NCBI GenBank assembly: GCA_017303795.1
Contig: JAFLBR010000010.1
Location: 3,447-67,446, forward strand
Reading direction: 5' to 3'
DNA from: Cytophagales bacterium
GTDB taxonomy: Bacteria; Bacteroidota; Bacteroidia; Cytophagales; Cyclobacteriaceae
DNA length: 64,000 bases
Shown one piece after another: positions 3,601-42,690 of the stretch (its first letter is position 1; the number at the start of each line of letters is the position of its first letter). A program made the position numbers and the translations under genes. The notes beneath the pieces are model-generated. The model searched no databases, had not been told where the DNA came from, and saw nothing but the letters and a program-made list of their open reading frames with translations.

Positions 3601-4480
3601 TATTATTTGCCCCTAACGCAAAGATTCCGTTGTTAACGAACAAAGTACCCGAAACACCGGTTGAAGTCGTAAGCGAAACTGTATTATTTCCACCACCGCC
3701 AGTATTGGCAATGGTAAGATCATTAACGGTTGCTGGTAATCCATTACCTGAGGATTGATTGGCCGCCCCTACATAAACATAATCTGCAGTAGTAGGAAAA
3801 GTTCTAACACCCGTTACCTGAATGTTTCCAGATGTGGTAGGACTGGTAGTTATACCATTGATTGATCCTATGCGTAACGTTGCCGTAGCACCCAGTATAA
3901 AATCGCTATCAAAACCTGTTACTGAAAAGTTATCGCGAACCACACCTGTGCCCGTAAGTGTAAGGTCACCATTATTTTGAAGAAACCGGTTTACGGTACC
4001 TGAAGTTACATTCAACGTTCCGGCTATTGTACTAACACTGGTTACTGATAGAGTTATATTAACCCGAAACCCCGAACCGTCAATACCAAGTGTTAAAGTC
4101 TCACTTGCTGCAATTGTAAGTGGACCCGTTACCGTTATATCTGCTACTGTGGCGGCAGCTGTACTACCGAATAAACAAGTACCGTTAATGGTAAGCCCGC
4201 CAAGCGAGATGGTGGGCACGTTGGTAATATTCCCGGATTGATCGGAGTTAATAACTACCACATCCCCGGCAACGGGTGGAGTGCCGCCACTCCAGTTTGC
4301 ACCTACCGACCAATCGCCACCGGTTGCCGGCAACCAGTTTTTCTGGGCGAAGGCACTTGTGCCGACTGTAAGTATCAGAAATACAATAAGAAAGCGAATG
4401 GAGTGAAGGCGGGTTTTTGAAACAGACTTAACTGCTGATAACGATTTGAAACGCGAAAGCAGTCGTAAAGTCAAGGACAT
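1..4480 (-). CDS. Giant secreted repeat protein (autotransporter-type beta-strand repeats plus Ig/PKD-like modules), 3' partial
   Basis: Reading the minus strand from an ATG at 4480 gives one frame; I checked it at about 4480, 3250, 1930 and 538 and it agrees, and it runs off the window at base 1 (at least 1,493 codons). A hydrophobic signal segment lies near residues 30-46, ending in a likely AFA|Q cleavage site. Residues ~330-870 are short Gly/Thr/Asn-rich units of the form GTLTLSGxNTxTGGTT, typical of autotransporter-associated beta-strand (PATR) repeats that build beta-helices. Residues ~1,190 to the edge look like Ig/PKD-like modules with paired Cys (VVVCEGSAA, QWYRNGIALVGE), including a near-exact 176-residue tandem unit. 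Bacteroidota proteins of this kind are usually exported by the type IX system, with a C-terminal sorting domain; that part is not visible. Probably a surface adhesin or matrix protein. The upstream lipoprotein gene is 77 bp away. The plus-strand open frames here are shadows. Confidence 0.85.
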   Translation of the reverse strand, partial: MSLTLRLLSRFKSLSAVKSVSKTRLHSIRFLIVFLILTVGTSAFAQKNWLPATGGDWSVGANWSGGTPPVAGDVVVINSDQSGNITNVPTISLGGLTINGTCLFGSTAAATVADITVTGPLTIAASETLTLGIDGSGFRVNITLSVTSVSTIAGTLNVTSGTVNRFLQNNGDLTLTGTGVVRDNFSVTGFDSDFILGATATLRIGSINGITTSPTTSGNIQVTGVRTFPTTADYVYVGAANQSSGNGLPATVNDLTIANTGGGGNNTVSLTTSTGVSGTLFVNNGIFALGANNITTVSAINMTGTSITGTGTITLAGDVTSNASGATASIGAPIALGGSTRTFTIADGGATPDLQISSGFSGAAGFIKSGSGLLNLFGVSTYTGTTTVNAGTLRLGSLTALGTTAGGTIVNTGAAIDISGQNYAAAEPLTLNGTGISGSGALFNSSVTGATFGGLITLGSSATITGSTGTINISNAGTITGAGFDLTLDGAAGGTLASGLGTGAGGIIKSGAGTWILSGTNTFTGSVLINTGTVRLSSVGALNASNTVVFGAGSTGVLQLNGNTYTVAGLNTNATVGTPIVENSAAGAAQLTVLTAGASTYAGVIRNGGAGTLSIGKAGTGSLTLSGNNTHTGGTTLLAGTLNINSSTAVGSGTFNINGGSIDNTSAGAITLTNNNPQNWNGNFAFTGTQNLNLGTGAVTPSASRQVTVNGGELTVGGVIGGGAIGITKLGSGTLTLSAANTFTSGVTLAAGTLNINNANALGTVAGTFTINGGTIGNTTAGAITTLNYPMTWGGDFAFNGTQNLNLGTGTVTLSANRQVTVNSNTLTVGGVINASTFNLTKSGVGTFSFGSNTVTLNNLTVNAGTFTSTSSTLNLAGNFTNAGTFNHNSGTVHYNGTATQSVAGVTYHNLITSAAGQKNATGAVVVNNNLTNTTILDMGSNALSVSGALDNTGGNIRFAGATNGLAIATGTITYYGSSQTITTGTYNNLVINQASGQASLGGNVIVNGTLTLTNGVLNLSGFDLTIGPAATISVASPSATRMIIANGSQVIKSFTGVGSFFFPIGDNTGTTEYSPITVNITAGAGFPANVGVSVVDAKHPNNSSTANFLTRYWEVNQTGITGGVATITTTYPNADISGTEGNITSAQLNGVFNQVSNPWTKFLALAANTLTATGATLTSGQTSYFTGLRGANPTATITGGGVTICVGGSAALNTNVTGDGPFTYSWSPATGLSATNIANPIATPVVTTPYTVTLRDGNGITATDNTTITVNTVPATPAVTPAGPVVVCEGSAAIVLTSDAGSGNQWYRNGIALVGETATTLNITTNPTNSGSYTVISTVSGCASSVSNAVAVTINALPLTTPVVAPATTTICNGNTVTINIAGSQAGINYELFDGVTSLSSPVAGTGGAINIITSALTANTTITVRATNPTTTCTTLLSGTSVVTVNAIPATPAVTPAGPVVVCEGSAAIVLTSDAGSGNQWYRNGIALVGE

Positions 4481-29291: not shown

Positions 29292-29999
29292 TTACCGCAG
29301 CGGCAGAAACCCAAACGGAATTGCAGACGCTTTTGCAAAGTTGCTTTTGGTTCGGGTGGGTGCAAATGGTTTAACCTGCATGGCTTCGAGATATGCAGCT
29401 ACCTGTGCATCGCGGTGCGCGTCATTAAAGGTTACCTGAATATCCGCACGACCTATTGCTTTCAGTATGCCAACAAAATAATCCAAACCTTCGGCTTCGG
29501 CTTGCAGCAAGATGCGGTTCGACTCCGCCAGGTAGCGGGCCGTGTCGATCCGGTTGGCGATGGTGGAACTCATGTAGTCCAACACTTCCGGATATAAATC
29601 TTTACCGGCATATAACTGGAAGCTACGCGTTTCGCGTACTACCATGCTGCCCACGTGGTAGATGGGTTCATGTAATGTTGCGCGTGGTAAAATAATCTGC
29701 CGGATCGAGTCCCCGGTTTGAATCAGTTCAATGTCTTTCAGATTGAGGTAAGCCGTAACCGTTACCGGTACTTGTACCATTGCCCGAATGGCTTTATCAG
29801 GATTGTTTTTCTTATGCAGCATAAACAAATCGGTGTAGGTATGCTTTACCAGATGCAACTCGCGTATAGACAGGATTTGTTGTAATGTAAGTTGATTAGG
29901 AGAAGGCTGCTGCAGGCGATGATAGTGCATGCCCGCAATAAAGGCGGCTACGGCAAGGCCGATAGCAATTACGGGTGTAAGGTGTTTAATCGTTTTCAT
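29292..29999 (-). CDS. DUF4230-like membrane-anchored protein
   Basis: 235 aa. One N-terminal transmembrane segment (residues ~8-24, then MHYHRL). The region IRELHLVKHTYTDLFMLHK followed by strands VPVTVTAYLNLKDIELIQ and IRQIILPRATLHEPIYH fits DUF4230, a family of anchored proteins of unknown role. The C-terminal part is helical (~150-200). It is 95 bp downstream of the next gene but a terminator separates them. Confidence 0.65.
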   Translation of the reverse strand: MKTIKHLTPVIAIGLAVAAFIAGMHYHRLQQPSPNQLTLQQILSIRELHLVKHTYTDLFMLHKKNNPDKAIRAMVQVPVTVTAYLNLKDIELIQTGDSIRQIILPRATLHEPIYHVGSMVVRETRSFQLYAGKDLYPEVLDYMSSTIANRIDTARYLAESNRILLQAEAEGLDYFVGILKAIGRADIQVTFNDAHRDAQVAAYLEAMQVKPFAPTRTKSNFAKASAIPFGFLPLR

Positions 30000-30040
30000 G
30001 GCTCATTCATAGTTAAATTGTTTTCGTTATTTATCGTTCA

Positions 30041-30076
30041 AAAAAAAACCTCTGCAAGCCCGGCCCGCAGAGGTTT
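30041..30076 (-). terminator. Rho-independent terminator after the 240-aa unknown gene
   Basis: Stem AAACCTCTGC (30046-30055) / GCAGAGGTTT (30067-30076). On the minus strand a T-run from the complement of 30041-30048 follows. Confidence 0.88.
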
Positions 30077-30094
30077 ATTCAGATGCGGTTATCA

Positions 30095-30817
30095 TCAGCT
30101 GTTTCGGGGTTGTTTAACGTCTAACTCTTTCATTAACGCATACTCCCCGCTATCGTGACCAAAGAGACCTCGTATATACTTCTTGATAGCACGCACGGCA
30201 TACATCATGGAGTTTTCATTGATGTACAAAACCTTGTTCCGGTCAACCAGTTTCAGGCGCCACTCCTTCCGGGCCTTGTCCAACGCGTGGTTCAGTTGGG
30301 TTAACTCCTGCACACTCGCTTCCAGTTCCGGAATCTTGTAGCCCGTTTCAAAAGGATCGTACAACGCTTCCGTTTTTAAGGCGGCCACCAGTTTTGAAAA
30401 GGCATCCACCCTGGCAGCAAAAGCCAACTGCAACGAGGTGCCCTTGGGTGCGGGAGTAGATTCTACATTCTCCGAAGCCAGCGGTTTGCGACTGCGACTT
30501 GTTACTCCTGTAAACTGATGCACGAAGCCACGCGCATCTTCCAATTGCTCTTGCTTCACGCCCGATGCCTCGAGCCTGCGCAAGATGCCAGCCAGTATGC
30601 GCGGCATCTTATCGAATGCCTGCTTTCGTTGGTTAACGTGCCAATCGTAATTCGCTTTGGCTGTCTTCACAGCTTCCAGCACAAGTTGAATCTGATTGAC
30701 TTGTGAAGTCAACGCTTCCATTTGGAGGGTTGGGCGACCAGGGTTATACATACCTCCGAACCCGGTGAATAAGCTCACCACCCGGGTGAATGCTTCTGCG
30801 TTTTTAACATGTGACAT
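30095..30817 (-). CDS. Hypothetical protein, helical, unknown function
   Basis: 240 aa. No signal or membrane segment. Predicted mostly helical, basic at the C-terminus (VRAIKKYIRGLFGHDSGEYA). The N-terminus GFGGMYNPGRPTLQMEALT is followed by repeated helices with many Lys and Glu. I do not recognise a family; it has no transposase or nuclease motif. It reads away from the 22-bp repeat array, whose near edge lies 210 bp upstream of its start. Confidence 0.65.
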   Translation of the reverse strand: MSHVKNAEAFTRVVSLFTGFGGMYNPGRPTLQMEALTSQVNQIQLVLEAVKTAKANYDWHVNQRKQAFDKMPRILAGILRRLEASGVKQEQLEDARGFVHQFTGVTSRSRKPLASENVESTPAPKGTSLQLAFAARVDAFSKLVAALKTEALYDPFETGYKIPELEASVQELTQLNHALDKARKEWRLKLVDRNKVLYINENSMMYAVRAIKKYIRGLFGHDSGEYALMKELDVKQPRNS

Positions 30818-31027
30818 ATTTGTGAATGTTATATGGCATGCAACGCGCCCGGTTATACGCAGTTGCTTGTTTATTACACTTTTTATAAAAGTATTTTGTT
30901 GATGAAAACCAAAACTGATTTACGATTGGCACGTTTGCACGACACGCTTTTTAATGACGGTCGATTAGAAATTCATTAACTCTATTTAAACTGACACGCT
31001 ATCCCGAATAGCTTCTTCGCGGTGTTC

Positions 31028-31335
31028 AGTATAAAAGAAGATGGTGCCTACCCTAAACCTGTTCGGTGTGTGTTGTAAACCGGAATGGTGCTTACTTTAT
31101 ACCAGAATAGTACCTACTCTAAAACCGACTAATGCTTACTATAAACCAGACAGGTGTTTACTATAAAACCAAATGGTGTTCACGGTAAACCTGAATGGTG
31201 GTTACTATAAACGTGATTGCTATCTACTCTAAACCCAAATGGTATTAACTATAAACCCGAATGGTGGTTACTATAAACCTGTGCGGTGTTCACTATAAAA
31301 CCGGATGGTGGCTGGTATAAACGGGAATGGTGTGC
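31028..31335. repeat. Array of 14 degenerate, strictly phased 22-bp repeats
   Basis: Fourteen consecutive 22-bp units with no insertions or deletions between units; consensus near ACTATAAACCnGAATGGTGnTT. For example 31138, 31160, 31248 and 31270 all begin ACTATAAA. Individual units differ at several bases but the spacing is exact. The preceding 22 bp (31006-31027) ends CGGTGTTC and may be a decayed fifteenth unit. Across each junction is an imperfect dyad, GGTGTTTA-CTA-TAAAACC. Each unit carries stop codons, and 22 is not a multiple of 3, so it is non-coding. Confidence 0.93.
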
Positions 31336-31616
31336 TTTTATAGTTTTAGCTTTTAAACCTTGCCTCACGGGAGTGGGAAAGAGCAACAACAAACTGACAG
31401 GTAGCGTATGGAACCTGACAGATGATTCTATGTAGGTTCGTGCGAGGTTCGATGGCAGTTCGATCCGCCCTTAGCCATTGCCGGTGTTACACTGGCAATT
31501 TGATTTGAACTTCTTTTTGGTGAAGAATACCCACAAGGGCACGGGGTGATATTCTTCATAAAAATATTCGTAGAGACTACATTGCCTCTTACTCGCATTG
31601 AAAAAATATGAATTAA

Positions 31617-31640
31617 AGAGCCTGACTAATGCCAGGCTCT
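31617..31640 (-). terminator. Terminator after the 50-residue peptide gene
   Basis: Stem AGAGCCTG (31617-31624) / CAGGCTCT (31633-31640), 8-nt loop. On the minus strand it is followed by TTTAATT. It lies 5 bp past the small gene's stop. Confidence 0.6.
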
Positions 31641-31645
31641 AAGAA

Positions 31646-31798
31646 TCACTTGAAAACTTTTACCAGTTGACTTGCAGTCGCTACTGCAATACCAACGATA
31701 GCTACAAAAGCCAACACTTTTGCAAGTTCTCCAACAACCGTAATGCAAACGTCCTTTTTGCATACAGTCACCTGATCCCTCTTAGTCACATAATTCAT
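31646..31798 (-). CDS. Small single-pass membrane protein (50 aa)
   Basis: ATG at 31798, TGA at 31646-31648, 50 residues. The N-terminal half is polar with two Cys (VTVCKKDVCITV). Residues ~25-47 are a hydrophobic helix (LAKVLAFVAIVGIAVATASQ) ending in KVFK. The well-formed membrane segment, the basic flanks and the terminator right after the stop support a real gene. It lies 62 bp downstream of the YegP-like gene on the same strand and may be co-transcribed. It could be a small envelope peptide or a type I-like toxin; function unknown. Confidence 0.6.
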   Translation of the reverse strand: MNYVTKRDQVTVCKKDVCITVVGELAKVLAFVAIVGIAVATASQLVKVFK

Positions 31799-31860
31799 AT
31801 GTTAACATCTAAAAGATTAAAAAATCCTGCCACTTTACCTCCGGCAGACTAAGGCCTCTG

Positions 31861-32196
31861 CTAAGAGAGATCTTCAGTGGGTGCATTAGGTGCATCGCGC
31901 TTAACGGCTGAAATTCCATCTTCCCTTCCGGTGCGGGTGGTGTACATTTCGCTCTTACCTAGTATCTTCCCATTGGAGGCTTCGAGGTTAAACGAATACT
32001 GCGAAACACTATCCTTCCGGTTGTACCGGCTGTCATAAGGTGCGTTTACCTTGACTGATGAAATTCCGTCCTGACAGCCTTGCTTACTCACATACGTCTC
32101 GCTTGCTGTTAAAACGATCTCACCATTTTTGGCGCGCAGCACAAAATAGAATTGATTGTTGGTTGAGCGTTTGATTTGAAATTTGGGATTTTCCAT
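31861..32196 (-). CDS. YegP/DUF1508 family protein, two repeats
   Basis: 111 aa made of two DUF1508 units: FYFVLRAKNGEIVLTASETY followed by GCQDGISSVKVNAP, and YSFNLEASNGKILGKSEMYT followed by GREDGISAVKRDAP. The same two-unit layout occurs in E. coli YegP. Function is unknown; members are often tied to stress or DNA-damage-type regulation. No signal peptide. A palindrome GTGACA-N5-TGTCAC lies 107 bp upstream of the start and is shared with the WYL/Panacea promoter. Confidence 0.9.
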   Translation of the reverse strand: MENPKFQIKRSTNNQFYFVLRAKNGEIVLTASETYVSKQGCQDGISSVKVNAPYDSRYNRKDSVSQYSFNLEASNGKILGKSEMYTTRTGREDGISAVKRDAPNAPTEDLS

Positions 32197-32302
32197 TTTA
32201 CTACGTGGTTGTTAATGTTTTAAAAAGTTGAAAAAATAAAATCGAAAAGCGCAGGCAATAAGCATTACTGTGCTTTCGATGGTACGAAAGTATTACCGGG
32301 TA

Positions 32303-32319
32303 GTGACATCTATTGTCAC
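32303..32319. promoter_or_regulatory. Operator-like palindrome upstream of yegP, copy 1
   Basis: GTGACA-TCTAT-TGTCAC, extending to 7-bp arms AGTGACA/TGTCACT. Same arms and same 5-bp spacing as the site at 33505-33521. It lies 107 bp upstream of the YegP-like start. Confidence 0.65.
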
Positions 32320-32344
32320 TGAAAAAAAGAAGTTGTTGGGTTAA

Positions 32345-32824
32345 TCAGGAAGTTCTTCTCTGTTCAAGCTCCTGAATGATGGGCTCCATCGCATTGCGAA
32401 TACCACGGGGAACAAATTGACTTTTATAAATGCAATAGAGTAGGTTACAGTATTCTGCATCAGTCAGTTCATCGAGTAATAATGCAGCACCCGTTTCCTG
32501 ATACTTCTTTGTAAGATGTGTTATGCTTCGCTTGGTTAAATTTCCCAGCACCTGAATATAGGTGTCTTTAAGAAAGAAAAAACCACTCTTTCCCACGGCA
32601 AATGTCTTGGGTATGCAATAACAATGAAGCCTTGAAGGTTCATCATGAACGCAGCGTTTACCTTTATGAATTTCAGGAATATAATCAACGGAAGTTGTTA
32701 ATGGAGCAATAATGGCATCTTCTGAAGTTTGAAGAATGACAATCATGAATTTATCTTTTGACTCGGCACCTTCGCGCTCAAAGTCAAAATCCTTGATTAG
32801 TAAAATATTACGCGGAGAAAACAA
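32345..32824 (-). CDS. MazF/PemK-like toxin candidate paired with a Panacea antitoxin
   Basis: 159 aa. The N-terminal part KDKFMIVILQTSEDAIIAPLTTS has the strand order of the MazF/PemK barrel (a growth-inhibiting mRNA endonuclease in well-studied cases), where an aPLTS-type strand is common. The C-terminal ~60 residues are helical. It begins 3 bp after the Panacea gene stop, the usual antitoxin-first order. No catalytic residues can be assigned by eye. The neighbour supports a toxin; the fold is inference. Confidence 0.6.
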   Translation of the reverse strand: MFSPRNILLIKDFDFEREGAESKDKFMIVILQTSEDAIIAPLTTSVDYIPEIHKGKRCVHDEPSRLHCYCIPKTFAVGKSGFFFLKDTYIQVLGNLTKRSITHLTKKYQETGAALLLDELTDAEYCNLLYCIYKSQFVPRGIRNAMEPIIQELEQRRTS

Positions 32825-32827
32825 GGA

Positions 32828-33418
32828 TCAGAGTTTTAGTGATTCCTGGGCTGTTTTGAATACACTAAGCTTGTATGGATCGTCTGCAACAAGTTCAGAA
32901 AGATCTATTTTGTATGAAGAAGTGTTATCTTTTTCAAATTTCTTTTCCAGATTTTGCTCATCTACTATCTTCTTCCAAAGACTTCCCTCCTCGTGTAATA
33001 ACTTGATTAAGTCATCTTTCTGGTAATACCCGAATTGATCAATTATCCGATCAATGAGCTCAATTTCATAATCTGAAAATTCTGAGTCATCAAATTTGTT
33101 TACTGAAGCGATTTGCGCTGCTTCGCCTTCGCCCTTCTTGGCCTCTGCGAAGATTGATAGTTTATCTGAATTTTCATGCCTCAGATCTTTGTACACGTCA
33201 AATGCCACAGGCCCCATTTTCCAAACACGGTATTCCAAACCTGTTACCGGAGCACCTGTTTCTTTAACAGAAGTTTCATCAATGATGTAAAGTAGCTTTA
33301 ATAGCTTGGTTAAGTAAAGGCGTTGGCGGTGCTTTTTTTGAATTTCATCCACCAGATAAATAACTAAGTTACCGACCTTATCTAGATTCGGCATAGGGGT
33401 TTCGCTTTTTAGTGCCAT
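32828..33418 (-). CDS. Panacea (DUF4065/SocA-like) antitoxin-domain protein
   Basis: 196 aa. The N-terminal LVIYLVDEIQKKHRQRLYLT followed by KLLKLLYIIDE, and then GLEYRVWKMGPVAFDVYKDL, are the classic Panacea features (helices around KLLKLLYF and W-x-x-GPV). The domain neutralises many unrelated toxins and occurs next to the toxin gene; it also serves as a proteolytic adaptor in SocA. Residues ~110-150 (IELIDRIIDQFGYYQKDDLI) complete the fold. Divergent from the WYL regulator, with a palindrome between them. Confidence 0.88.
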   Translation of the reverse strand: MALKSETPMPNLDKVGNLVIYLVDEIQKKHRQRLYLTKLLKLLYIIDETSVKETGAPVTGLEYRVWKMGPVAFDVYKDLRHENSDKLSIFAEAKKGEGEAAQIASVNKFDDSEFSDYEIELIDRIIDQFGYYQKDDLIKLLHEEGSLWKKIVDEQNLEKKFEKDNTSSYKIDLSELVADDPYKLSVFKTAQESLKL

Positions 33419-33504
33419 AGGTGAAATAAAAGGGTAGCCAATCTGCTTATAAGATTAGACAAATTAGGGGGTTTTATTTAACTTAGCAAAGGTAGCCACT
33501 AACA

Positions 33505-33521
33505 GTGACAACTTTTGTCAC
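33505..33521. promoter_or_regulatory. Operator-like palindrome in the WYL/Panacea divergent promoter, copy 2
   Basis: GTGACAA-CTT-TTGTCAC, equivalent to GTGACA-N5-TGTCAC. It ends 16 bp before the WYL start and lies 87 bp before the Panacea start, so a bound protein could repress both. Confidence 0.7.
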
Positions 33522-33537
33522 CAATTAAAATCCCGCT

Positions 33538-34524
33538 ATGTCGGCCACAAAAAAGCAAAGCCTTAGATTAGAAATTCTGGATGAATTGCTTTCCACCCGA
33601 AAGTGGACACTGGAAGAGCTACTTGAACGAATTAATGAAAAGCTTGCCGATGGTGCTAATACAATTGACAAGCGCACTTTATTCCGCGACATTAAGTACC
33701 TGTCCGAAACGAAAGATGCTCCCATTCATCGCCCCAAAAAGAAGGACCGCTTATACTACTATACTGAACCCTTCTCACTCAAAAACATACCGCTTGATGA
33801 AGATGATATCGCTAGTTTAAAAAGCGCAATCCAAATACTACGACAGGTGGATAATTTTCATCTAGTTAACGAAGTGGATGATGTGATCAAACGACTTGAA
33901 AACAGAATTCATGTTCAAACACCTGAGCAAGCTGTGCTCATTCAATTTGAAAATCATACGTCTTCACAAGGCCATGAGTATGTTACTGATTTGCTGGAGG
34001 CCATTAAAAACAAAGTAGCTCTTCGTATCTCTTACCAACCGTTTACGCAACAGCAGGCTACAGAGCGTGTAGTGCATGGGTATTTGTTAAAAGAATTTAG
34101 AAACCGATGGTTTCTTTTTGGCCGTGAAGGAAACGCAAGCCGCGTAACTATTTATGCGCTTGATCGCATTAAAAAAATAAGACCTGCAACAAATGAGTAC
34201 CTAGCTAACGATCTATTTGACCCAACAACGTATTTCAAACACCTTATTGGTGTTTCCGTTGCCGAAGATGCAATTCCTGAACGACTAGAAATAAAGGTGT
34301 ACAAACAGGCTGTTCCCTATATACTTTCAAAACCTATCCATCTTAATCAGGAGATAACTAAAAAGAATAAAGATGGTAGTATTCTTATTGGCTTGAATCT
34401 GATTATTAACTACGAGCTAAAGTCCATTTTACTAAGCTACGGAAGTAGTATTGAAGTGAAGAAGCCAAAGTCATTTCGGGAAGTGGTGGCGAATGAAATT
34501 AAAAACTTGGCTAATATTTACTGA
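33538..34524 (+). CDS. WYL-domain transcriptional regulator (YafY/DeoR-type)
   Basis: 328 aa. N-terminal winged helix (RLEILDELLSTRKWTLEELL and TIDKRTLFRDIKYLSE, residues ~8-60). The WYL domain spans ~140-230, with GYLLKEFRNRWFLFGREGNA in place of the W-Y-L core. A C-terminal WCX-like part ends the protein (~230-328). WYL regulators sense nucleic acids or nucleotides and control many defence loci. It is transcribed away from the Panacea gene; the palindrome at 33505-33521 just upstream is its best operator candidate. Confidence 0.92.
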   Translation: MSATKKQSLRLEILDELLSTRKWTLEELLERINEKLADGANTIDKRTLFRDIKYLSETKDAPIHRPKKKDRLYYYTEPFSLKNIPLDEDDIASLKSAIQILRQVDNFHLVNEVDDVIKRLENRIHVQTPEQAVLIQFENHTSSQGHEYVTDLLEAIKNKVALRISYQPFTQQQATERVVHGYLLKEFRNRWFLFGREGNASRVTIYALDRIKKIRPATNEYLANDLFDPTTYFKHLIGVSVAEDAIPERLEIKVYKQAVPYILSKPIHLNQEITKKNKDGSILIGLNLIINYELKSILLSYGSSIEVKKPKSFREVVANEIKNLANIY

Positions 34525-34576
34525 AATTTTATAAATCACTGGCCATCACCAATTGGTATGCAATAAAAATAGAGTT

Positions 34577-35164
34577 TCATATTACTTGATAGTAGAATGC
34601 GCTCTCTATATCTCTAATTCCAATCTCACTGTTACAATTAGACTTCCACTCTATCAAATGCCTTCTATACTTTAAATAGTTTTGAATTACTTTAATTGGG
34701 TTCTTTGCTGAAAGTAAGTTATTTGTCAGGTATAATTCTTTGTTGTGCTCAAATGTTTTTCTCCATGCTTTAAGTACACGACTATCTATGATGGGAATAT
34801 TATTTGGAGAAATGAAATGGAGTACTTTTGAAGTACCTACAATCGAATTATTGATTTTTGGAATCAATTTCTCCAATAAAACACTCAATTCATCTTCCTT
34901 AAGGCTCTCAAGCCGTGAAATATAAATTTTGAGTTCAGACCAATCCTCAGGAGAAATGGCTTTAACATTGGGAATAGTAGGCATCCATGAATAAGCAAAT
35001 GCTATTAATTCATAAAACTCCCGCAACAATTTTGGAGCTTGCCTGCCGCTAAAAATTGAATATGAAATTTTGAACCATTCATCATCTGCAGGTTTGTATG
35101 GCGTTCTATTACTAAGCCAGTGGTATGTATCTTCATTAAGTCCAATATTCTCAGGCGTTTTCAT
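34577..35164 (-). CDS. Hypothetical protein in the defence region
   Basis: 195 aa, no signal or membrane segment. A central stretch GTSKVLHFISPNNIPIIDSR looks like the conserved core of small helical families in which an Asp follows a proline-rich turn, faintly like helix-hairpin-helix glycosylases, but I cannot confirm it. Rich in Lys, Trp and Asn, AT-rich codon use. It lies on the minus strand between the WYL gene and the SecB-like gene, 67 bp from the latter. Function unknown. Confidence 0.6.
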   Translation of the reverse strand: MKTPENIGLNEDTYHWLSNRTPYKPADDEWFKISYSIFSGRQAPKLLREFYELIAFAYSWMPTIPNVKAISPEDWSELKIYISRLESLKEDELSVLLEKLIPKINNSIVGTSKVLHFISPNNIPIIDSRVLKAWRKTFEHNKELYLTNNLLSAKNPIKVIQNYLKYRRHLIEWKSNCNSEIGIRDIESAFYYQVI

Positions 35165-35231
35165 CTTAATTTCTCTTTTTAATATTATACAAGACTTTCT
35201 CCACGCTGAGTTAGTGCCTTACAATGAGCAC

Positions 35232-35690
35232 TTAGCGAATTCCCTTTGCGGGGATTTTTTCAGTAAACGTAACATCATCTTTGATCATGTCCATGACATT
35301 GATGGTGGGTAAGATGAACTCATTGAACCGTGTGCCCTCCGTCTTTGTGTGTAATACCCCGCGCGCAGTACCAACGGTGATCATCCCCAGATGAACCATA
35401 AAGCCTTTCGGAATTAACGTGGTAACATTATCACGAAGAAATTTCTTCCACGAGGCGGGTGCAATCTGGAAATGATTAGATACTTCCACTTTTAGAAATG
35501 GAATGCCGTTATGTTCGAATTTAAACTGACAAAAAGCGGCAACCAGGCGCGCGTTTCTATCAATGGCAAAACGAAAGTTAGAGTTTAGATTAATCGGGGC
35601 GTTCTCCTGCCATGCCTCTTCAATAATGGCAAACTGTTCCGTTACCACTTTTACGATTGAGAATTGGACGATGTCATTCTTGTTCTCCAT
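35232..35690 (-). CDS. SecB-like chaperone of a toxin-antitoxin-chaperone operon
   Basis: 152 aa. The segment order resembles SecB: strand FRFAIDRNARLVAAFCQFKF, strand FLKVEVSNHFQIAPASWKKF, helix-turn KGFMVHLGMITVGTARG, then FILPTINVMDMI, which parallels the SecB LSPVNFDALY end. SecB-like chaperones in toxin-antitoxin-chaperone (TAC) systems bind the antitoxin tail and protect it. The gene ends an operon after a XRE antitoxin (1-bp overlap at 35690). The SecB call is by eye and needs a profile match. Confidence 0.6.
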   Translation of the reverse strand: MENKNDIVQFSIVKVVTEQFAIIEEAWQENAPINLNSNFRFAIDRNARLVAAFCQFKFEHNGIPFLKVEVSNHFQIAPASWKKFLRDNVTTLIPKGFMVHLGMITVGTARGVLHTKTEGTRFNEFILPTINVMDMIKDDVTFTEKIPAKGIR

Positions 35691-36151
35691 CAGGCTTGCA
35701 TTTTATATTCCAGTACTTGCTCTTTAGCATAAACTTGAACAGATTCAAGACCTACATAGCCTTTCTCAGCAGCCTTTTCAAAAACTTGTTTTCTAAAGAG
35801 TTCGCTCACCTCATACGCTTGTTGATAATCGTATACTACTTCGGTCATTGCTTCGCTGCCTGCCACTTCAATAAGTTTGATACCTAAGGCGCTTCTCAAC
35901 TTGCTGATAGTCTCCAACGAAAGGTTCTCTTGTCCTTTTACAATCTTATTTATAAACTGAGGAGACACTTTCATTTTTTCCGCCAGCTCCTTTTGAGTCA
36001 TTTTTTTTTCACGAAGTGTATCCAATACCAGCATGGCAATATCAAATGATTGTGATAACCACTCTTCATTTTCATTGCGCCACGTAGCTTCCTGTTGCCA
36101 AGTTGACTTTTGGGTAGAAATTATTTTATTCAGTTTTTCAAGGTTGCTCAT
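35690..36151 (-). CDS. XRE family antitoxin-like regulator
   Basis: 153 aa. Helix-turn-helix at residues 51-90 (MTQKELAEKMKVSPQFINKI, then LSLETISKLRSALG), preceded by an N-terminal stretch WRNENEEWLSQSFDIAMLVL. The ~60-residue C-terminal tail is of the kind that could serve as a chaperone-binding region in TAC systems. It sits 10 bp after the putative toxin and overlaps the SecB-like gene start by 1 bp. Probably represses its own operon and neutralises the toxin. Confidence 0.82.
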   Translation of the reverse strand: MSNLEKLNKIISTQKSTWQQEATWRNENEEWLSQSFDIAMLVLDTLREKKMTQKELAEKMKVSPQFINKIVKGQENLSLETISKLRSALGIKLIEVAGSEAMTEVVYDYQQAYEVSELFRKQVFEKAAEKGYVGLESVQVYAKEQVLEYKMQA

Positions 36152-36161
36152 ACCTTATTAA

Positions 36162-36695
36162 TTATAATACCAATTCACTAAGTCCTTCAACATCTGAAAT
36201 ACCTTGTTCACGCAGAAAATCCCGACACCGATCAAATTTTCTAAGTTCAGTTTTTGTATGCTCACTTCCCTGCATGCTCCTTGTTAGTTTAATGGCTCCA
36301 CCCGTAACAACGTAAACATTCGATTGCAGTTTAATAGCATAAACACGTAGCCAGCTTTTGGGTTTAACGCCTTTTGCTTTTGATCGAGTAAGTTCAATTG
36401 GTTCTTCAAGTCTAAGAGGTTCAAAAATAGAATCAAGGTTATCTTGTGTATTACTTGCGAGTTGAAGAAGGGTATTCTCCAATCTCCTGGCTTCGTCACG
36501 TGTTTGCCTTATGGCTGCTTGCAATGAGATAGCTCCAAAGAAACCACTGTGCAAATCTTCGATGTTTTCTGTAAAGAAGGTATACAGATATTGGGGATCC
36601 TGCCATTGGCTGAAAAGCCTGGAGAATTCATCGGGTTGATCCGTATCATAGCGGAAGGCTGTTAATTGGTCTGCAAAGATACTAACAATATCCAT
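36162..36695 (-). CDS. Putative HigB/RelE-like toxin of the TAC operon
   Basis: 177 aa, longer than a typical HigB (~100). The N-terminal half MDIVSIFADQLTAFRYD...DEFSRLFSQW is helical. The core WLRVYAIKLQSNVYVVTGGA followed by AIKLTRSMQ is a good match in shape to the RelE/HigB strand pair (basic residue, then vvvlxG). The end is a Lys/Arg-rich helix (KFDRCRDFLREQG). It is the first gene of a three-gene set with XRE and SecB-like genes, the toxin-first order seen in HigBA systems. Toxin activity is inference. Confidence 0.55.
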   Translation of the reverse strand: MDIVSIFADQLTAFRYDTDQPDEFSRLFSQWQDPQYLYTFFTENIEDLHSGFFGAISLQAAIRQTRDEARRLENTLLQLASNTQDNLDSIFEPLRLEEPIELTRSKAKGVKPKSWLRVYAIKLQSNVYVVTGGAIKLTRSMQGSEHTKTELRKFDRCRDFLREQGISDVEGLSELVL

Positions 36696-36708
36696 TAAAT
36701 CAACTTAT

Positions 36709-36726
36709 AGGTTTATTTTAAAACCT
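36709..36726. promoter_or_regulatory. Inverted repeat upstream of the TAC operon
   Basis: AGGTTT-N6-AAACCT, perfect 6-bp arms, centre ~22 bp before the toxin start. Position and symmetry fit the site of an XRE autoregulator. Confidence 0.5.
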
Positions 36727-36802
36727 TGTTTTTCAGATCATTAACACGCTTTTAACCATTTCCGCTTTATTCTACCAAGTCATTTCTTCGCGGCTAGGTC
36801 CA

Positions 36803-38110
36803 TCAAGGCTCGGCAGCCATAGATAGTTTTTCTGTTTCTTGTGTATAGTGGCTCACTTCATTAAGTACATCCTGCTCCACCAACTCCCCTCGAAAAGCCT
36901 TAGCCAAAATAGCCTGCGGCAGATGATCAATTTTTTCTTGCAGGGTGTTGTAGCTGGCTTCAATGCGATCAGCCACAGCAAAAAGTGATTCTACTCTTCG
37001 AATAATTTCCTTTTGTTCAGCGAATGGTGGAAGAGATAAGTCAAATTCAGAAAAAACATCAACCGGAACCCTCATATGTCCAGAAGTACCTTTAAATCTG
37101 GACTTACAATAATCTCTAAACTCCGGTCTTAATAAAAAATAGAAAATATATTCAGCAAGAACTTCTGGCTTTGGCCGCAAAACATGAAGTTCAGTCGTGC
37201 CACAACCAATACCGCCCGTCAGCCCTTTGGCAATTGCGATTTTTCCATTCTCCATGCATGGGGTAATTTTTGCGAACAAGACATCTCCTTCAATAAATTT
37301 TGTAAACCCCTGCTTTACTTCTTTGTACTTTTTGGTCTGGGACAAATCTAAAACACCATTCTCTTCTTGAATTCTAGTCATTGGAAGAAATGAGACATTA
37401 TCATTTAAATCTATTTCAACACCTCGATGGCCAGGATTAACGAAACAAACTTCAGCTAATGATGTATCTAACCATTGTGGAAGTTTTTTATTCTTCTCCC
37501 TCCACTCCTCCGTCAGCTTCCCAGTAACTGCTTGCGTAAGCACAGCCTGGCGGAATTGTTTGAGAAGAACAGGAATAGTTGAGAGGCGGGATTTGAGTTG
37601 ATCGAGGTGACCAAACAATGAATCTAACTTGGCTACGATGCGCTTTTGTTCTGGCCTTGGTGCCAACGGTATTTCAAGATCCGAAAGTTTAGTAGCATTG
37701 ATATTTTGAACTGCTATCCCAGCGGAAACGTCAGAAATTTGCTGCCAATACTCAGCTGATTTAAGAAAATACTCTAAATATTTATGTTCTACAGCGGTCG
37801 CACGCATCCTAATTAAATATGATGCAAAAACAGACTTAGGTGGTGGGTTTTCAATTCGATAGCTAAGTCCTACTGATCCTGCACGTGAAATCACAATGTC
37901 GTTGTCTTCGACTTGATACTTCTCAATATCATCTGGCTCATCAAGACAATATGGCACCGTTTCCCAATCAACAACTCCACTTGAAAGATCTGTTGTTCTT
38001 AAATATTTTATGGCTCCTTTTTGAGCAGCTTTGCTTGTCCAACCATATTGAGGCTTTGCGCATACCTTGCCCAATGTTGTGAATACCCAATTTTCAGGCA
38101 AATCGCTCAT
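36803..38110 (-). CDS. hsdS: Type I restriction system specificity subunit HsdS
   Basis: 435 aa with two target-recognition domains and two conserved helical linkers. TRD1 begins at LPENWVFTTLGKVCAKPQYG, and its linker is LAPRPEQKRIVAKLDSLFGH. TRD2 lies at ~210-385 and its linker is LPPFAEQKEIIRRVESLFAV. Each TRD reads one half of the bipartite site that HsdM methylates. It overlaps the HsdM stop by 1 bp (38110). The linker similarity is a potential place for TRD swapping, but no second hsdS or invertase is present here. Confidence 0.95.
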   Translation of the reverse strand: MSDLPENWVFTTLGKVCAKPQYGWTSKAAQKGAIKYLRTTDLSSGVVDWETVPYCLDEPDDIEKYQVEDNDIVISRAGSVGLSYRIENPPPKSVFASYLIRMRATAVEHKYLEYFLKSAEYWQQISDVSAGIAVQNINATKLSDLEIPLAPRPEQKRIVAKLDSLFGHLDQLKSRLSTIPVLLKQFRQAVLTQAVTGKLTEEWREKNKKLPQWLDTSLAEVCFVNPGHRGVEIDLNDNVSFLPMTRIQEENGVLDLSQTKKYKEVKQGFTKFIEGDVLFAKITPCMENGKIAIAKGLTGGIGCGTTELHVLRPKPEVLAEYIFYFLLRPEFRDYCKSRFKGTSGHMRVPVDVFSEFDLSLPPFAEQKEIIRRVESLFAVADRIEASYNTLQEKIDHLPQAILAKAFRGELVEQDVLNEVSHYTQETEKLSMAAEP

Positions 38111-39570
38111 TAACTTAACTCTTTAATTATTAGCTCTAATTCCTTTATGATAGATGCTGTTTCTTCCTGAGCAGCTCGCGCGATTTTCAAAGGATCAACT
38201 TCGCTTCCGCTACTGCTGTAACTATCATCAGCAATCAAGCCAACATCCAATGAATCATTCTTTGCGGCTAGAGCTTCGCGTGTGAAGGAATGCCACCGAG
38301 GGTCTTCAATCTTTTCACGCTTCTTTGAATTTATCGTTCCATCAAACTTCTCCTTCACCTTATCAATCGAAATACCTCCGGTGTAGGCCAGTACAAAATC
38401 AGCAAAATGATTTCGCGCCAACGGGTTGCGCTTACCCAGGCTTTCCATGTTGGTGCGCATGTCGTAATACCAAATCTGTTTGGTGTTTCCGGTTTCGGTA
38501 GTGCCGCGCTCAAAAAACAGTACATTAGTCTTCACGCCTTGTGCATAGAATATGCCAGTCGGCAAACGCAAAATGGTGTGCAGGTTACACTTGTCCATTA
38601 AGTCTTTGCGTATGCGCTGGCCATCGCCATCTTCAAACAATACGTTATCGGGTAGTACCACCGCGGCCCTGGCTCCGCCACGCTTATGCAACGAGCGGTA
38701 AATGTGTTGCAGGAAGTTGAGTTGTTTATTGGCAGTCGGATATGTAAAGTCATCACGGCTTGGGCGCTCGCCACCTTGCTTGGTGCCAAAGGGTGGGTTG
38801 GCCAATACGCCATCGTAGTTCTTCATGTCTTTGCCTGCTTCGCTCAACGTATCCTCCATGCGGATGTCGCTTTCCAGTCCATGCAGCTTGGCATTCATGA
38901 TAGCAAGGCGGTGGGCATCTTGCACCAACTCACAACCACTAAATGCTTTCTCTACTTGAAATTTTCTATCCTTTGCACTTAAATCAAAGTAGTTATCTGT
39001 TTTTTCACGCAGGTATTCGTTGGCAGCGATCATAAACCCAAATGTGCCAGCCGCGGGGTCGTTCCACCGCTCGCCAATTTTAGGGGCAAGTAAATCCACC
39101 ATTACATTAATCAAAGGCCGTGGTGTAAAGTATTGTCCAGCTCCGCTCTTCTTTTCACTGGCATTCCGTTCCAGCAGGTTTTCGTAGATGGTGGCAATTT
39201 GATCTCGTTCGGTATCTTCAAACCAATCAATGCCATCAATGGCGGTAATGAGCGTGCGCAGGTTTACAGGCTTGCGTAGCGTGGTTGATGCATTCGTATA
39301 AATCTCAGTGATGGCCGGGTTCTTAGATTTCGTAGAAATGTTGGCCAACAAGTCGCGGTAAACATCAAACATTTCTTTGTTATCCTTGGTGTCAACTAGT
39401 TTGCGCCACCGGTATTCTTTGGGGATATCTTTCTCAAATTCTTTTACCTCTGAAAGTTTAAGAAATAAGATGAAGGTAAGTTCATTCAAATATTGGTGAT
39501 AGGTAACTCCATCATCGCGAAGGATGTTACAAAGTCCCCATAGTTTATTGGCAATCGCTTCTGCGCTCAT
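38110..39570 (-). CDS. hsdM: Type I restriction system N6-adenine methyltransferase HsdM
   Basis: 486 aa. N-terminal HsdM domain (residues 1-~130), then SGAGQYFTPR (142-151), SAM motif DPAAGTFGFM (171-180) and catalytic motif NPPF (258-261). With HsdS it forms the modification enzyme and with HsdR the restriction complex. Operon order hsdR-hsdM-hsdS, 3 bp after hsdR. Confidence 0.97.
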   Translation of the reverse strand: MSAEAIANKLWGLCNILRDDGVTYHQYLNELTFILFLKLSEVKEFEKDIPKEYRWRKLVDTKDNKEMFDVYRDLLANISTKSKNPAITEIYTNASTTLRKPVNLRTLITAIDGIDWFEDTERDQIATIYENLLERNASEKKSGAGQYFTPRPLINVMVDLLAPKIGERWNDPAAGTFGFMIAANEYLREKTDNYFDLSAKDRKFQVEKAFSGCELVQDAHRLAIMNAKLHGLESDIRMEDTLSEAGKDMKNYDGVLANPPFGTKQGGERPSRDDFTYPTANKQLNFLQHIYRSLHKRGGARAAVVLPDNVLFEDGDGQRIRKDLMDKCNLHTILRLPTGIFYAQGVKTNVLFFERGTTETGNTKQIWYYDMRTNMESLGKRNPLARNHFADFVLAYTGGISIDKVKEKFDGTINSKKREKIEDPRWHSFTREALAAKNDSLDVGLIADDSYSSSGSEVDPLKIARAAQEETASIIKELELIIKELS

Positions 39571-39573
39571 GTA

Positions 39574-42500
39574 TTAAGCTGTTTCTGAATATAAGTTTTC
39601 GTTTATCTTTTGAAGAACATCTTCTAATTGTAGTTCAAATATCTTGTTCAATCTGGTGAACCCTCCCTCTTCGTTAAATGGCGGTCTGTCTAAATCCTCT
39701 TTTTGCAAAATCGTTTCATGAATCAACTGCGCCTGGAAACGGTCGAGCCATTTTTCTTGTACTTTATTCCATGGGCGTGAGCTACGAATTTTATTCATTG
39801 CATTTTTAATCCTTGTTTCATGATCCACCAAACTACTACCGAGCGAAAGGGTGCGGATAAAAGAAATGATATCGGCAGCAATGTCTTGGTTCCTGACAGC
39901 CTTCCACGCATGGCGCAGGTTAAGGTCTGTATAGCCCGCGGCATCAAGCGAAAGGTAAAGTTCCTTTAATGATTTTCTGTCCAGTTCTGTAGGCTTGGTG
40001 CAAATCAAATTGATGGCCGAGATCTTATTGGCGTTTTCCTGAATAAATTTTCTGAAATTCTCAATGTAATCCTCTGGCTTTTTAGCAGACCCATAGCCAC
40101 GCTCAGATTCAAGTGCTTTATCCTCATGTTCAGATACTAATTGATAAGCTGGCGCTGGTTTGAACTCGTCTAAAAATTTCCAAAGGTCATCATGTTTTAT
40201 AATCTCGCGAATGGCTTCATTCACGGGCAGGTCTTTCAGCATATTGATATAGCTTTCTATATCCTTGCCACCGGCAGAGAACTTAAATCGCTCTTCGGCT
40301 ATGTTTGTGAGTTTCCTTTTCTTCCGTTGCAGTTTGGCAATGATCTGCTCAATCTGCTGCTTCAGTCTCTCTTCACTTTTAATTTGCCTAATCTCCCCCA
40401 CTAACTCGCCAAATGAAATGGTTGGATTGGGAACCACGGGTTTCATGTTGGTGAAATCTTCCAGGGCCTCGTAGATACGTACGGCATCAAAAATTTTAAA
40501 AGCCTCTTTATTGATTTCTTCGCAAAGACGCGTTGCGCGGCCCATCATTTGTTCATACAAAATTCTGGATTTTACTCTACGTAGAAATACAATGTTACAG
40601 ATAGCAGGTACATCGATGCCCGTGGTGAGCAGATCAACTGTAACAGCAATATTTGGAAACTTTTCATTTTTGAAAAGCTTGATCAGCTCAAGCGGATCGT
40701 AGGACTTGCCTGTAATCTTGGCAATTGCGTTGTCACCCGGCTCAATACCGATTTTACGAAACTCTTCTTTAAGTATCTGTACAATCAAATCAGCATGGTT
40801 ATCAGAAGCAACAAAGACCAATGTTTTTTCATCACCTTCGGGATCAAGATACTGCACGAGTTGTTTTGCCACTTCACGGTTGAAGGGTTCGGTGATCACT
40901 AACTTATTGAACTGATCTATTTCAATTCTCAATTCGTCTTCCAATGCATCCAACTCTTTAATAGAATTGGTTTCTTTATCATACACCTTTGGTCTTTCGC
41001 CCTTCTCCCACACAATTCCTTCTTCGCTCAGTTTGGTTTTGATGAGGTAAGGTGGTTCATGGTCTATGAGGAAACCATCAATCACAGCCTCGCGGTAGGA
41101 ATAGTTATAAACAGGTCTTCCAAAAATTTCAGTTGTCTGTAGGGCGGGTGTAGCGGTAAGTCCAATGGCAAACGCATCAAAGTAATCGAGCACCATGCGG
41201 TACTTGCTTACATAATCTTGCTGGTTCTTAAACTCCAAATCTTCTTCACCCATTTCTCGATCCATCAGGTAGCCCCGGTGAGCTTCATCAATGATAATGC
41301 AATCGTAGGTGTCAATGGTAGGAATTTCTCCAGGTTCATTGGCATCTTTATAAAACAGTCGCTTCACCAAACTCTGCACCGTAGCGAAGTGAAGCCTGGT
41401 ATCTACATCAGGAATAGCCTTTTTTAATTCTTCTACCTGATAGATTCCTGCAAACGTATTGAGATCTTCTACCTTATTATCTTTGAAAGCATTTATAGCT
41501 TGAATACCCAAGGCCGTGCGATCTACTAAAAACAAAATGCGCTTGAATCGATTCGATTTTATAAGGCGATAACACAAACCCATGATGGTGCGTGTTTTGC
41601 CCGTGCCGGTAGCCATAGCCAGCAAAGCACGTTTTCTGCTTTTATCGGCCACTGCTTCTTCCACTTTTTCAATGGCAGTAATCTGGTAGTCGCGCAAACC
41701 TAGGCCACTTGAACTTTGTAAAAAATCTTTACGATCGTTGGCTAGTTTTTTATTGGCACTGTCTACATCGCGTTCAAGAATCTCTTGTAACCCTTTCGGT
41801 GAATACCATGCCTGCAATGAACGAGCTGTATTTTCATTATTGCGTACATCCAAAAACCAGATACCCGATTTAGTTTTTATTTGCTCAAGATAAGGACGCC
41901 CATTCGTTGAGAAAAGAAATGGCACCTTGTAGTTTTGCCATTCACCTAAGAGTTGAGCATCATTTTCAGTCGCTGCTAACCCCGCATAAATCTTTGACTG
42001 TCTGAGGTCGGTGGAAATATCCTGTCCCCATTTCTTTGCCTCTACAATACCGTATAATTCAGTGCCGATAAACAAGGCATAGTCAGCCCATTTCTCGCCT
42101 ACTTTCCATTCCGCAATAGCAAGATTCTTTCCCCGCTTTGGTAGTGTTCGTTTAATTTTGAAGTTGAGCTCATTGGTATTAGCTTCCCAACCTGCCAAGC
42201 GTAACTGAGCATCTACTAATTCGCGCGTTTCAGCTTCTGTTAAATCAATATTGCGCGCTGCTTCTTCTGAACGTTGTTGAATTTCTTTTGCTTGTGTTGG
42301 GCTAAGTACTGTTGGCTCTTTTTCAATGAGAAGAGCATTGAATTTTTCCTCAAGTTCTTTGTAATTCTTTTCTAATTCGTGTAGAGCGTGCCTTGAATCC
42401 AGATTGGGCGGCAGGCTGAACTTAAGCTCTGTTATGTTTTTGTTTTCTATGGAATACGTTTGATAAAACCACTTAGTCACCTTGAAGGCAGACATAAGCA

Positions 42501-42690
42501 TGGTCTTCGCATCGTCTAATGAGCCTTTAGATTCGTGTGCGGCCAGATTTCCTTTTTGCTTTATTCCATGTATCAGGCTGGCGATGTTGGGCAGAAATAT
42601 TTTCTCGTCTTCCAGTATTCGTATTCTATTATGGAGTGTGTTTTCTCGAGGCTTTTCAAGGCTATGTTCTTCAAAAAGGTAGTCGACCAT
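39574..42690 (-). CDS. hsdR: Type I restriction system endonuclease/translocase HsdR (N-terminus lost by frameshift)
   Basis: 1,038 aa from an internal ATG at 42690. Nuclease motif D203...E217-A-K219 (WADYALF, then GIVEAKKW), Walker A MATGTGKT, DEAH box IIDEAHRG, helicase motif VI QMMGRATR, and a C-terminal EcoEI-type domain. It pumps and cuts DNA lacking HsdM marks. The N-terminal DUF4145-like region is cut: upstream residues in this frame continue as CAAEYHLYSDPSIALLK but meet a TGA at 42793-42795. A second frame holds a fitting start, MTNSNFLFLEKEF, at 42821. One missing base near 42764 would join them. The visible protein could still work if the first ~43 residues are not needed. Confidence 0.9.
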   Translation of the reverse strand: MVDYLFEEHSLEKPRENTLHNRIRILEDEKIFLPNIASLIHGIKQKGNLAAHESKGSLDDAKTMLMSAFKVTKWFYQTYSIENKNITELKFSLPPNLDSRHALHELEKNYKELEEKFNALLIEKEPTVLSPTQAKEIQQRSEEAARNIDLTEAETRELVDAQLRLAGWEANTNELNFKIKRTLPKRGKNLAIAEWKVGEKWADYALFIGTELYGIVEAKKWGQDISTDLRQSKIYAGLAATENDAQLLGEWQNYKVPFLFSTNGRPYLEQIKTKSGIWFLDVRNNENTARSLQAWYSPKGLQEILERDVDSANKKLANDRKDFLQSSSGLGLRDYQITAIEKVEEAVADKSRKRALLAMATGTGKTRTIMGLCYRLIKSNRFKRILFLVDRTALGIQAINAFKDNKVEDLNTFAGIYQVEELKKAIPDVDTRLHFATVQSLVKRLFYKDANEPGEIPTIDTYDCIIIDEAHRGYLMDREMGEEDLEFKNQQDYVSKYRMVLDYFDAFAIGLTATPALQTTEIFGRPVYNYSYREAVIDGFLIDHEPPYLIKTKLSEEGIVWEKGERPKVYDKETNSIKELDALEDELRIEIDQFNKLVITEPFNREVAKQLVQYLDPEGDEKTLVFVASDNHADLIVQILKEEFRKIGIEPGDNAIAKITGKSYDPLELIKLFKNEKFPNIAVTVDLLTTGIDVPAICNIVFLRRVKSRILYEQMMGRATRLCEEINKEAFKIFDAVRIYEALEDFTNMKPVVPNPTISFGELVGEIRQIKSEERLKQQIEQIIAKLQRKKRKLTNIAEERFKFSAGGKDIESYINMLKDLPVNEAIREIIKHDDLWKFLDEFKPAPAYQLVSEHEDKALESERGYGSAKKPEDYIENFRKFIQENANKISAINLICTKPTELDRKSLKELYLSLDAAGYTDLNLRHAWKAVRNQDIAADIISFIRTLSLGSSLVDHETRIKNAMNKIRSSRPWNKVQEKWLDRFQAQLIHETILQKEDLDRPPFNEEGGFTRLNKIFELQLEDVLQKINENLYSETA

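Follow-up and report, generated by a model that had tools for sequence, protein, structure and literature searches.

A gene for a basic, predicted all-helical protein recurs beside DNA arrays with a period near two helical turns in Cytophagales and other Bacteroidota

The window analysed here is a stretch of 64,000 nucleotides from the genome of a Cytophagales bacterium of the family Cyclobacteriaceae. Near its middle lies a tandem array of 22-bp units that had been picked out from the sequence alone as a set of phased sites of unknown function. The features of this locus that are used below all lie on the minus strand:

29292..29999, minus strand: gene for a DUF4230 protein (Pfam) with a hydrophobic N-terminus, an accessory partner in part of the family
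30046..30076, minus strand: intrinsic terminator, AAACCTCTGC...GCAGAGGTTT plus a T run, with similar sequence in many relatives
30095..30817, minus strand: gene for the 240-residue array-linked family protein, basic (pI 9.5), predicted to be all-helical, internally duplicated
30818..30940, minus strand: 5' leader with AACGTGCCA, ATAnnnTTT and CAAC...GCGT, common to part of the relatives with upstream arrays
31021..31027, minus strand: truncated unit end, seven bases by which the array extends towards the gene
31028..31335, minus strand: 22-bp phased tandem array of 14 units, with the core GCACC/CACC in gene sense
31646-31798, minus strand: 50-residue peptide with a hydrophobic segment and no Pfam, NCBIfam or PHROG match

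The array at 31028-31335, which is also called by TRF, consists of 14 contiguous head-to-tail units of 22 bp with zero indels, each of them identical to the majority unit at 14–21 of 22 positions. Its lag-22 identity is 0.643, while the best value at any lag from 10 to 59 did not exceed 0.374 in 2000 shuffles; the claim of fourteen exactly spaced units of diverged sequence is therefore borne out. Conservation is unevenly spread over the columns (variance test, p = 0.014), four of which are invariant, compared with 0.63 expected if mismatches were evenly spread (P = 0.003). Adjacent units are about as alike (0.66) as distant ones (0.65), as would be expected if a consensus is maintained and the units were not recently copied. 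Stop codons interrupt all six frames, which upholds the original prediction that the array is non-coding and rules out a coding repeat. A proposed decayed fifteenth unit at 31006-31027 did not hold up: it matches at 7 of 22 positions, where random windows have a mean of 5.7 and a 99th percentile of 11, and only its last seven bases (31021-31027) fit the array. The array is likewise unsupported as a structured RNA, both by Rfam, which gave no family at gathering score across 30001-33000 (four sub-threshold matches, all outside the array), and by folding relative to shuffles (z of -0.62 on the plus strand; in gene sense, z of -1.67, equalled or bettered by 5 of 100 shuffles).

The array sequence occurs at a single place in its own genome. 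A DNA-similarity search of 58 genomes, its own and 57 relatives, returned only matches of 18–26 bp (E >= 0.007) beyond its own locus, and a three-unit pattern of the array was found in its own genome and in none of the other 389 of the 390 genomes of the order, because the array sequence is not conserved. At most homologous loci it is the period that recurs, and not the consensus that had been put forward.

The array begins about 210 bp upstream of the gene at 30095-30817 on the minus strand. Two-turn phasing in most homologous loci, together with this co-occurring gene, lends comparative support to the earlier suggestion of phased sites and a partner protein; however, the gene lies on the opposite side of the array from the neighbours that had been named. 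Those neighbours, the 50-residue peptide and a YegP-like gene (DUF1508, two stretches), are indeed present on the far side, but neither is among the recurrent neighbours at 34 family loci, a survey of ORFs of at least 70 residues to which the 50-residue peptide is invisible. Further out, positions 32828-42690 of the window form an accessory region with a SocA/Panacea-domain gene, a WYL regulator, an HTH gene and, by reading of the sequence, apparent type I restriction-modification genes.

The 240-residue protein matches no Pfam or NCBIfam family above cut-off. PHROG and PADLOC gave weak matches only, those in PADLOC being to single members at E values of 0.0045 or worse, so that no plasmid, phage or defence family matches convincingly. 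Pfam searches with the window protein and 30 homologues found no known DNA-binding domain and no Rep family (NCBIfam likewise gave no Rep family for the window protein); no known centromere-binding family was above cut-off, one of the 30 homologues having a weak VirD1 match (E 0.0025). The AlphaFold model of the protein is all-helical (mean pLDDT 86, pTM 0.75) and matches no PDB or viral structure in Foldseek at E <= 0.001. A co-occurring gene, which had been suggested as something to look for, was found; its protein has no known DNA-binding domain or fold match. In the model, helices follow in similar order in the two halves of the protein, and these can be aligned profile to profile (probability 94%, E 2.6e-8). 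This alignment pairs Arg64 with Arg193, which in A3 are almost invariant and invariant, respectively. The family as a whole is basic, with a mean pI of 9.5 over 60 proteins.

Relatives of the protein are patchily distributed. They were found in 25 of 58 genomes of the genus, the window's own included, with up to 11 matches in each, some of them partial, and in 9 of 395 genomes across the phylum, again including its own. The 32 family loci with a named source come from Cyclobacteriaceae, Flammeovirgaceae, Cytophagales, Chitinophagales, Chitinophaga, or simply Bacteroidetes.

Regions around the homologues were scanned for tandem periodicity in a manner blind to sequence, with a score threshold of 18. 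We assigned arrays to a two-turn class comprising lags 20–22, 41–45, 62–67 and 83–89 (21 of the 88 lags scanned), a class that was drawn up once the first results had been seen. Within 1 kb of the gene, 71 of 91 distinct copies have such an array; the copies are not independent events, because common descent links both the arrays and the proteins. Three of the 71 arrays are open to doubt, namely L065 (weak), L090 (CRISPR-like) and L142 (31-bp unit). Among lags from 14 to 30, the best is 21 in 53 of the 71 arrays and 22 in 11, and the autocorrelation averaged over arrays peaks at 21/22, 42–44, 63/66 and 84/88. Arrays of the class number 71 in 173 kb near the genes versus 13 in 672 kb beyond 1 kb. 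Fifty of the 71 are upstream of the gene and 21 downstream. The recurrent pairing of gene and array is directly observed.

No two-turn-class array was found within 1 kb in the remaining 20 of the 91 copies, some of which are at contig ends; a supported clade of five (L134, L136, L137, L138 and L141) lacks one. Some family copies have other repeats instead, and spacings that depart from the two-turn period at homologous loci, which had been named in advance as the observation that would speak against phased sites, were seen as exceptions only (7/14, 8/16, 24 and 31 bp). L134 and L138 carry 7/14-bp minisatellites in place of a two-turn array, and at L142 the downstream array (3906-4157 in gene sense) has a lag of 62, from a 31-bp unit near three helical turns. 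At L098 and L128, which are one place, a frame-broken family gene adjoins a lag-44 array.

Within the window's own genome, 1.264 Mb (26%) was scanned for arrays, chosen to include both gene-bearing contigs, and the two top-scoring of the 18 tandem arrays detected there adjoin its two intact family genes. Two further two-turn arrays, C1:632871-633054 and the weak C21:113461-113562, have no family match beside them. The former (L222:12871-13054), in which phased 22-bp units carry GCAC-like cores on the minus strand, may be an orphan left behind when its gene was lost. At C21:138613-138699 (L067, L144, L190) a third family copy is present as a fragment, with weak 63-bp periodicity nearby, and this may be a decaying module. 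Several places on C1 also bear lag-14 minisatellites (CTGGTTA-like) that are unrelated to the module.

Although unit sequences differ widely among loci, unsupervised alignment of 65 arrays identified a degenerate core, aAAnntnGCAcC in gene sense, that the arrays have in common. Its EM score of 184.6 exceeds both the scores of column-shuffled arrays (mean 132.2, sd 3.4, maximum 139.5) and those obtained with random orientations (mean 150.1, sd 4.7, maximum 156.3). When left out of the alignment, 54 of 65 arrays favoured the sense strand: 34 of 45 upstream arrays, the other 11 having no sense-strand preference, and all 20 downstream ones. These 65 of the 71 arrays, L090 not among them, include close relatives. 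The window array itself scores 3.86 in the sense and 1.71 in the antisense direction.

The original prediction also had an imperfect dyad at each unit junction, like a binding site. This is not supported: the window array has no more dyad symmetry than column-shuffled units (p = 0.66), and over 70 of the 71 family arrays (L090 left out) the mean z is -0.09, with one array at p <= 0.05. With no dyad beyond that of column-shuffled units, the units are directional.

Many genes with an upstream array have a common leader. The motif CGTGCCA occurs in 27 of 89 family leaders, and 22 leaders, two of them without CGTGCCA, could be aligned; a second, AT-rich leader type was aligned for 14 genes. In the window, the leader at 30818..30940 is probably promoter plus 5' untranslated region, the promoter role being deduced from sequence. 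At the other end, a terminator-like hairpin follows 72 of 91 family genes, compared with 20 of 216 random windows. Sixteen of the 21 downstream arrays have a terminator between the stop codon and the array; nine of these terminators end before the array and seven overlap its start by 2 to 77 bp. No terminator was detected before the other five. Since the array precedes the leader or lies mostly at or beyond the terminator, we infer from the predicted transcript ends that it is probably outside the mRNA in most cases, which makes a role in the mRNA less likely.

A tree of 87 of the 91 proteins (L061, L064, L065 and L098 were left out) separates a side of 30 rows, whose arrays are all downstream (20 rows, with 10 lacking an array), from a side of 57 rows, whose arrays are upstream except that of L142; support for this split is modest (84/86). 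In the tree labels L090 counts as 'none', and L142 is the sole 'dn21' row on the upstream side. The window protein belongs to a supported clade of eight in which all six array-bearing members have 22-bp units. Across the tree as a whole, however, this 22-bp label clusters only modestly: its 12 rows require 9 changes, against a mean of 11.5 on shuffling, and 4 of 500 shuffles gave a count as low.

Furthermore, similarity between arrays tracks identity between the encoded proteins (Mantel r 0.30, p 0.0005; 60 of the 71 arrays, L090 left out of the Mantel test). For the 60 arrays it falls from 0.90 above 90% protein identity (6 pairs) to 0.65 at 50–60% and 0.58–0.60 below 50%. Change is faster in the array than in the protein, while a period near two turns persists. 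No segment of the protein that might specify the array stood out clearly once whole-protein identity was taken into account (best partial r 0.11). Across 53 of the 71 arrays, L090 left out, neighbouring units are on average slightly more alike than distant ones (0.591 vs 0.546), and in 35 of the 53 the two values are less than 0.05 apart.

The sole frequent neighbour of the family gene is a DUF4230 gene, present at 9 of the 34 surveyed loci (8 downstream of the family gene, 1 upstream); any other neighbour family that appears more than twice among these loci is present at 3 or 4 of them. Of 13 DUF4230 matches in the genus, ten lie directly downstream of a family gene, one lies about 1 kb upstream, and two have no family gene listed nearby. 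The DUF4230 gene in the window begins past the terminator, and the N-terminal stretch of its protein is seen to be hydrophobic in the sequence.

Proteins of DUF6261 (PF19775) are similar to the family in size (about 240 residues) and in having arrays of the two-turn class. This was predicted from first signs in 8 loci and then assessed in 36 loci, those 8 included, that were fetched out of all matches. In 30 of the 36, which come mostly from one other Bacteroidota genus and are thus not independent, the top array outside the gene has a lag of 41, 42, 83 or 84; the scan used a somewhat broader lag class and a threshold of 14, where the main scan had used 18, and 29 of the 30 also reach 18. The array is upstream in 29 of the 30, while in L164 it lies 977 bp downstream. 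DUF6261 arrays run at 41–42 bp, and in contrast to family arrays, which have no dyads beyond chance, their units do have dyads (mean z 2.61, with p <= 0.05 in 16 of 28; 28 of the 30 arrays, L103 and L164 left out). The Pfam cut-off for DUF6261 was reached by none of the 30 homologues, one of which matches at E 0.021, and profile comparison of the two families with hhalign gave E values of 0.009 and 0.004 at probabilities of 4–9%, with the weak similarity located at the start of the second half. DUF6261 is perhaps a remote relative of the array-linked family, the alternative being convergence.

We propose that the array and the 240-residue gene form one module, in the order two-turn-phased DNA array, leader, gene, terminator, and that the protein binds its own array with about one protomer per two turns; to this reading we give roughly an even chance. 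DNA is the presumed target because near-two-turn spacing is found in otherwise unlike arrays, and because these lie mostly outside the apparent transcript. The protein would occupy a single face of the helix, reading mainly the small core (GCAcC) plus the spacing, and neighbouring protomers would touch, giving a locus-specific nucleoprotein filament. Conceivably, such a complex would act in cis, in autoregulation, in marking or tethering of the locus, or in segregation; where a DUF4230 gene follows, its product might serve as a membrane-anchored partner that tethers the complex.

The array could instead be a binding site for some other host factor, such as a nucleoid protein or an activator, and work as an enhancer or insulator upstream of the module promoter, with the encoded protein doing something else. 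The upstream position of 50 of the 71 arrays and the conserved leader of many such genes would suit this arrangement, but it does not account for the 21 downstream arrays, 16 of which have a detected terminator before or overlapping them. Moreover, a general host factor would explain neither why array similarity tracks that of the encoded protein nor why such arrays are rare elsewhere, and we regard this alternative as rather unlikely.

The module may also be, or derive from, an iteron origin, a partition site or the end of a mobile element that has spread horizontally, as its patchy, multicopy distribution, its resemblance in anatomy to stbDR-stbA of plasmid R388 and the lack of a frequent neighbour other than DUF4230 in a subset might indicate. 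Iteron direct repeats are about 17–22 bp long, and Rep initiators consist of two related domains. The window array has in-phase direct repeats within that range, and the module resembles iteron origins in that a gene adjoins contiguous direct repeats with a period near two helical turns and encodes a protein of two related halves. Iteron origins come with Rep, however, whereas here we found no Rep domain, no plasmid match, an all-helical model and up to 11 matches per genome. By anatomy, the closest system is stbDR-StbA of plasmid R388, where, as reported (PMC3098194), stbDR comprises 9-bp direct repeats spaced by 2 bp, in two sets of five, that surround the stbABC promoter; StbA binds these repeats in vitro and acts through them, and the operon encodes a putative ATPase, StbB. 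The two systems are alike in that a gene adjoins its own regularly spaced direct-repeat array (here in the 71 copies counted above, the three doubtful ones included). They differ in that stbDR is plasmid-borne, has an 11-bp period, lies around the promoter and is accompanied by a putative ATPase, whereas the window array is on a 194-kb contig with housekeeping genes (by reading), arrays here have a 21/22-bp period and lie either at a distance from the gene start or past the terminator, and there is neither a frequent ATPase neighbour nor a match to a StbA-type family. Against replication or mobility, tblastn with the family protein (E 1e-5) found no match among 72,556 plasmid records and 50,697 phage records; in IMG/VR, a pattern-limited scan gave one contig with a family relative, and a second query gave none. 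Among the recurrent neighbour families, moreover, only DUF4230 is frequent, and we hold this origin to be unlikely.

A further alternative is that a repetitive RNA is transcribed from the array in gene sense and bound by the basic helical protein. The orientation of the core relative to the gene, kept in both array positions (54 of 65 arrays), the basic character of the protein, and the five downstream arrays with no detected terminator before them are in keeping with this. However, upstream arrays precede the apparent promoter and most downstream ones lie at or beyond the terminator, neither the folding of the window array nor the Rfam search favours an RNA, and an RNA would not need a spacing of two DNA turns; an RNA target is therefore improbable in our estimation. 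Finally, a neutral minisatellite without function, for which one might cite slippage as a means of growing and shrinking tandem units, the other minisatellites of this genome and the slightly greater average likeness of adjacent units, is very hard to reconcile with one period kept by unlike sequences at dozens of loci and in the DUF6261 set, with a core and orientation common to the arrays, with indel-free units of unevenly conserved columns, and with adjacent and distant units that are nearly equally alike in the window and in most other arrays.

Judged by membership tests, no known family or system takes in the gene–array module, although in principle the placing of a gene next to an array of its own has precedent. 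The window array shares regular repeats with CRISPR but differs in that its units are contiguous, without spacers, a contrast that can be seen at L090:5717-9514, where a 3.8-kb CRISPR-like array (repeat of about 36 bp, spacers of about 30 bp) lies directly upstream of a family module. None of the literature matches listed describes a pairing of this gene with an array, in a search that reached a minority of subscription papers and did not extend to work found only on bioRxiv.

More tentatively, we consider it possible, though less probable than binding of the array by its own protein, that these are representatives of a class of protein–DNA-array modules across Bacteroidota, with two branches, this family and DUF6261, in which two-turn spacing is inherited while the repeat sequence is rewritten. 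If one genome holds some ten modules, each with its private array, these arrays could act as address tags or small centromere-like sites, some of them tethered to the envelope through DUF4230.

What had been an isolated array of unknown function is now one case of a recurrent gene–array system. Its partner protein has been named, core and period can be predicted, and dozens of natural variants are at hand, which opens binding, spacing and specificity to direct tests. The system also provides a starting point for work on DUF6261 and on a new family of helical proteins. Conserved spacing combined with sequence turnover is unusual, and would show how a protein keeps hold of a drifting DNA target.
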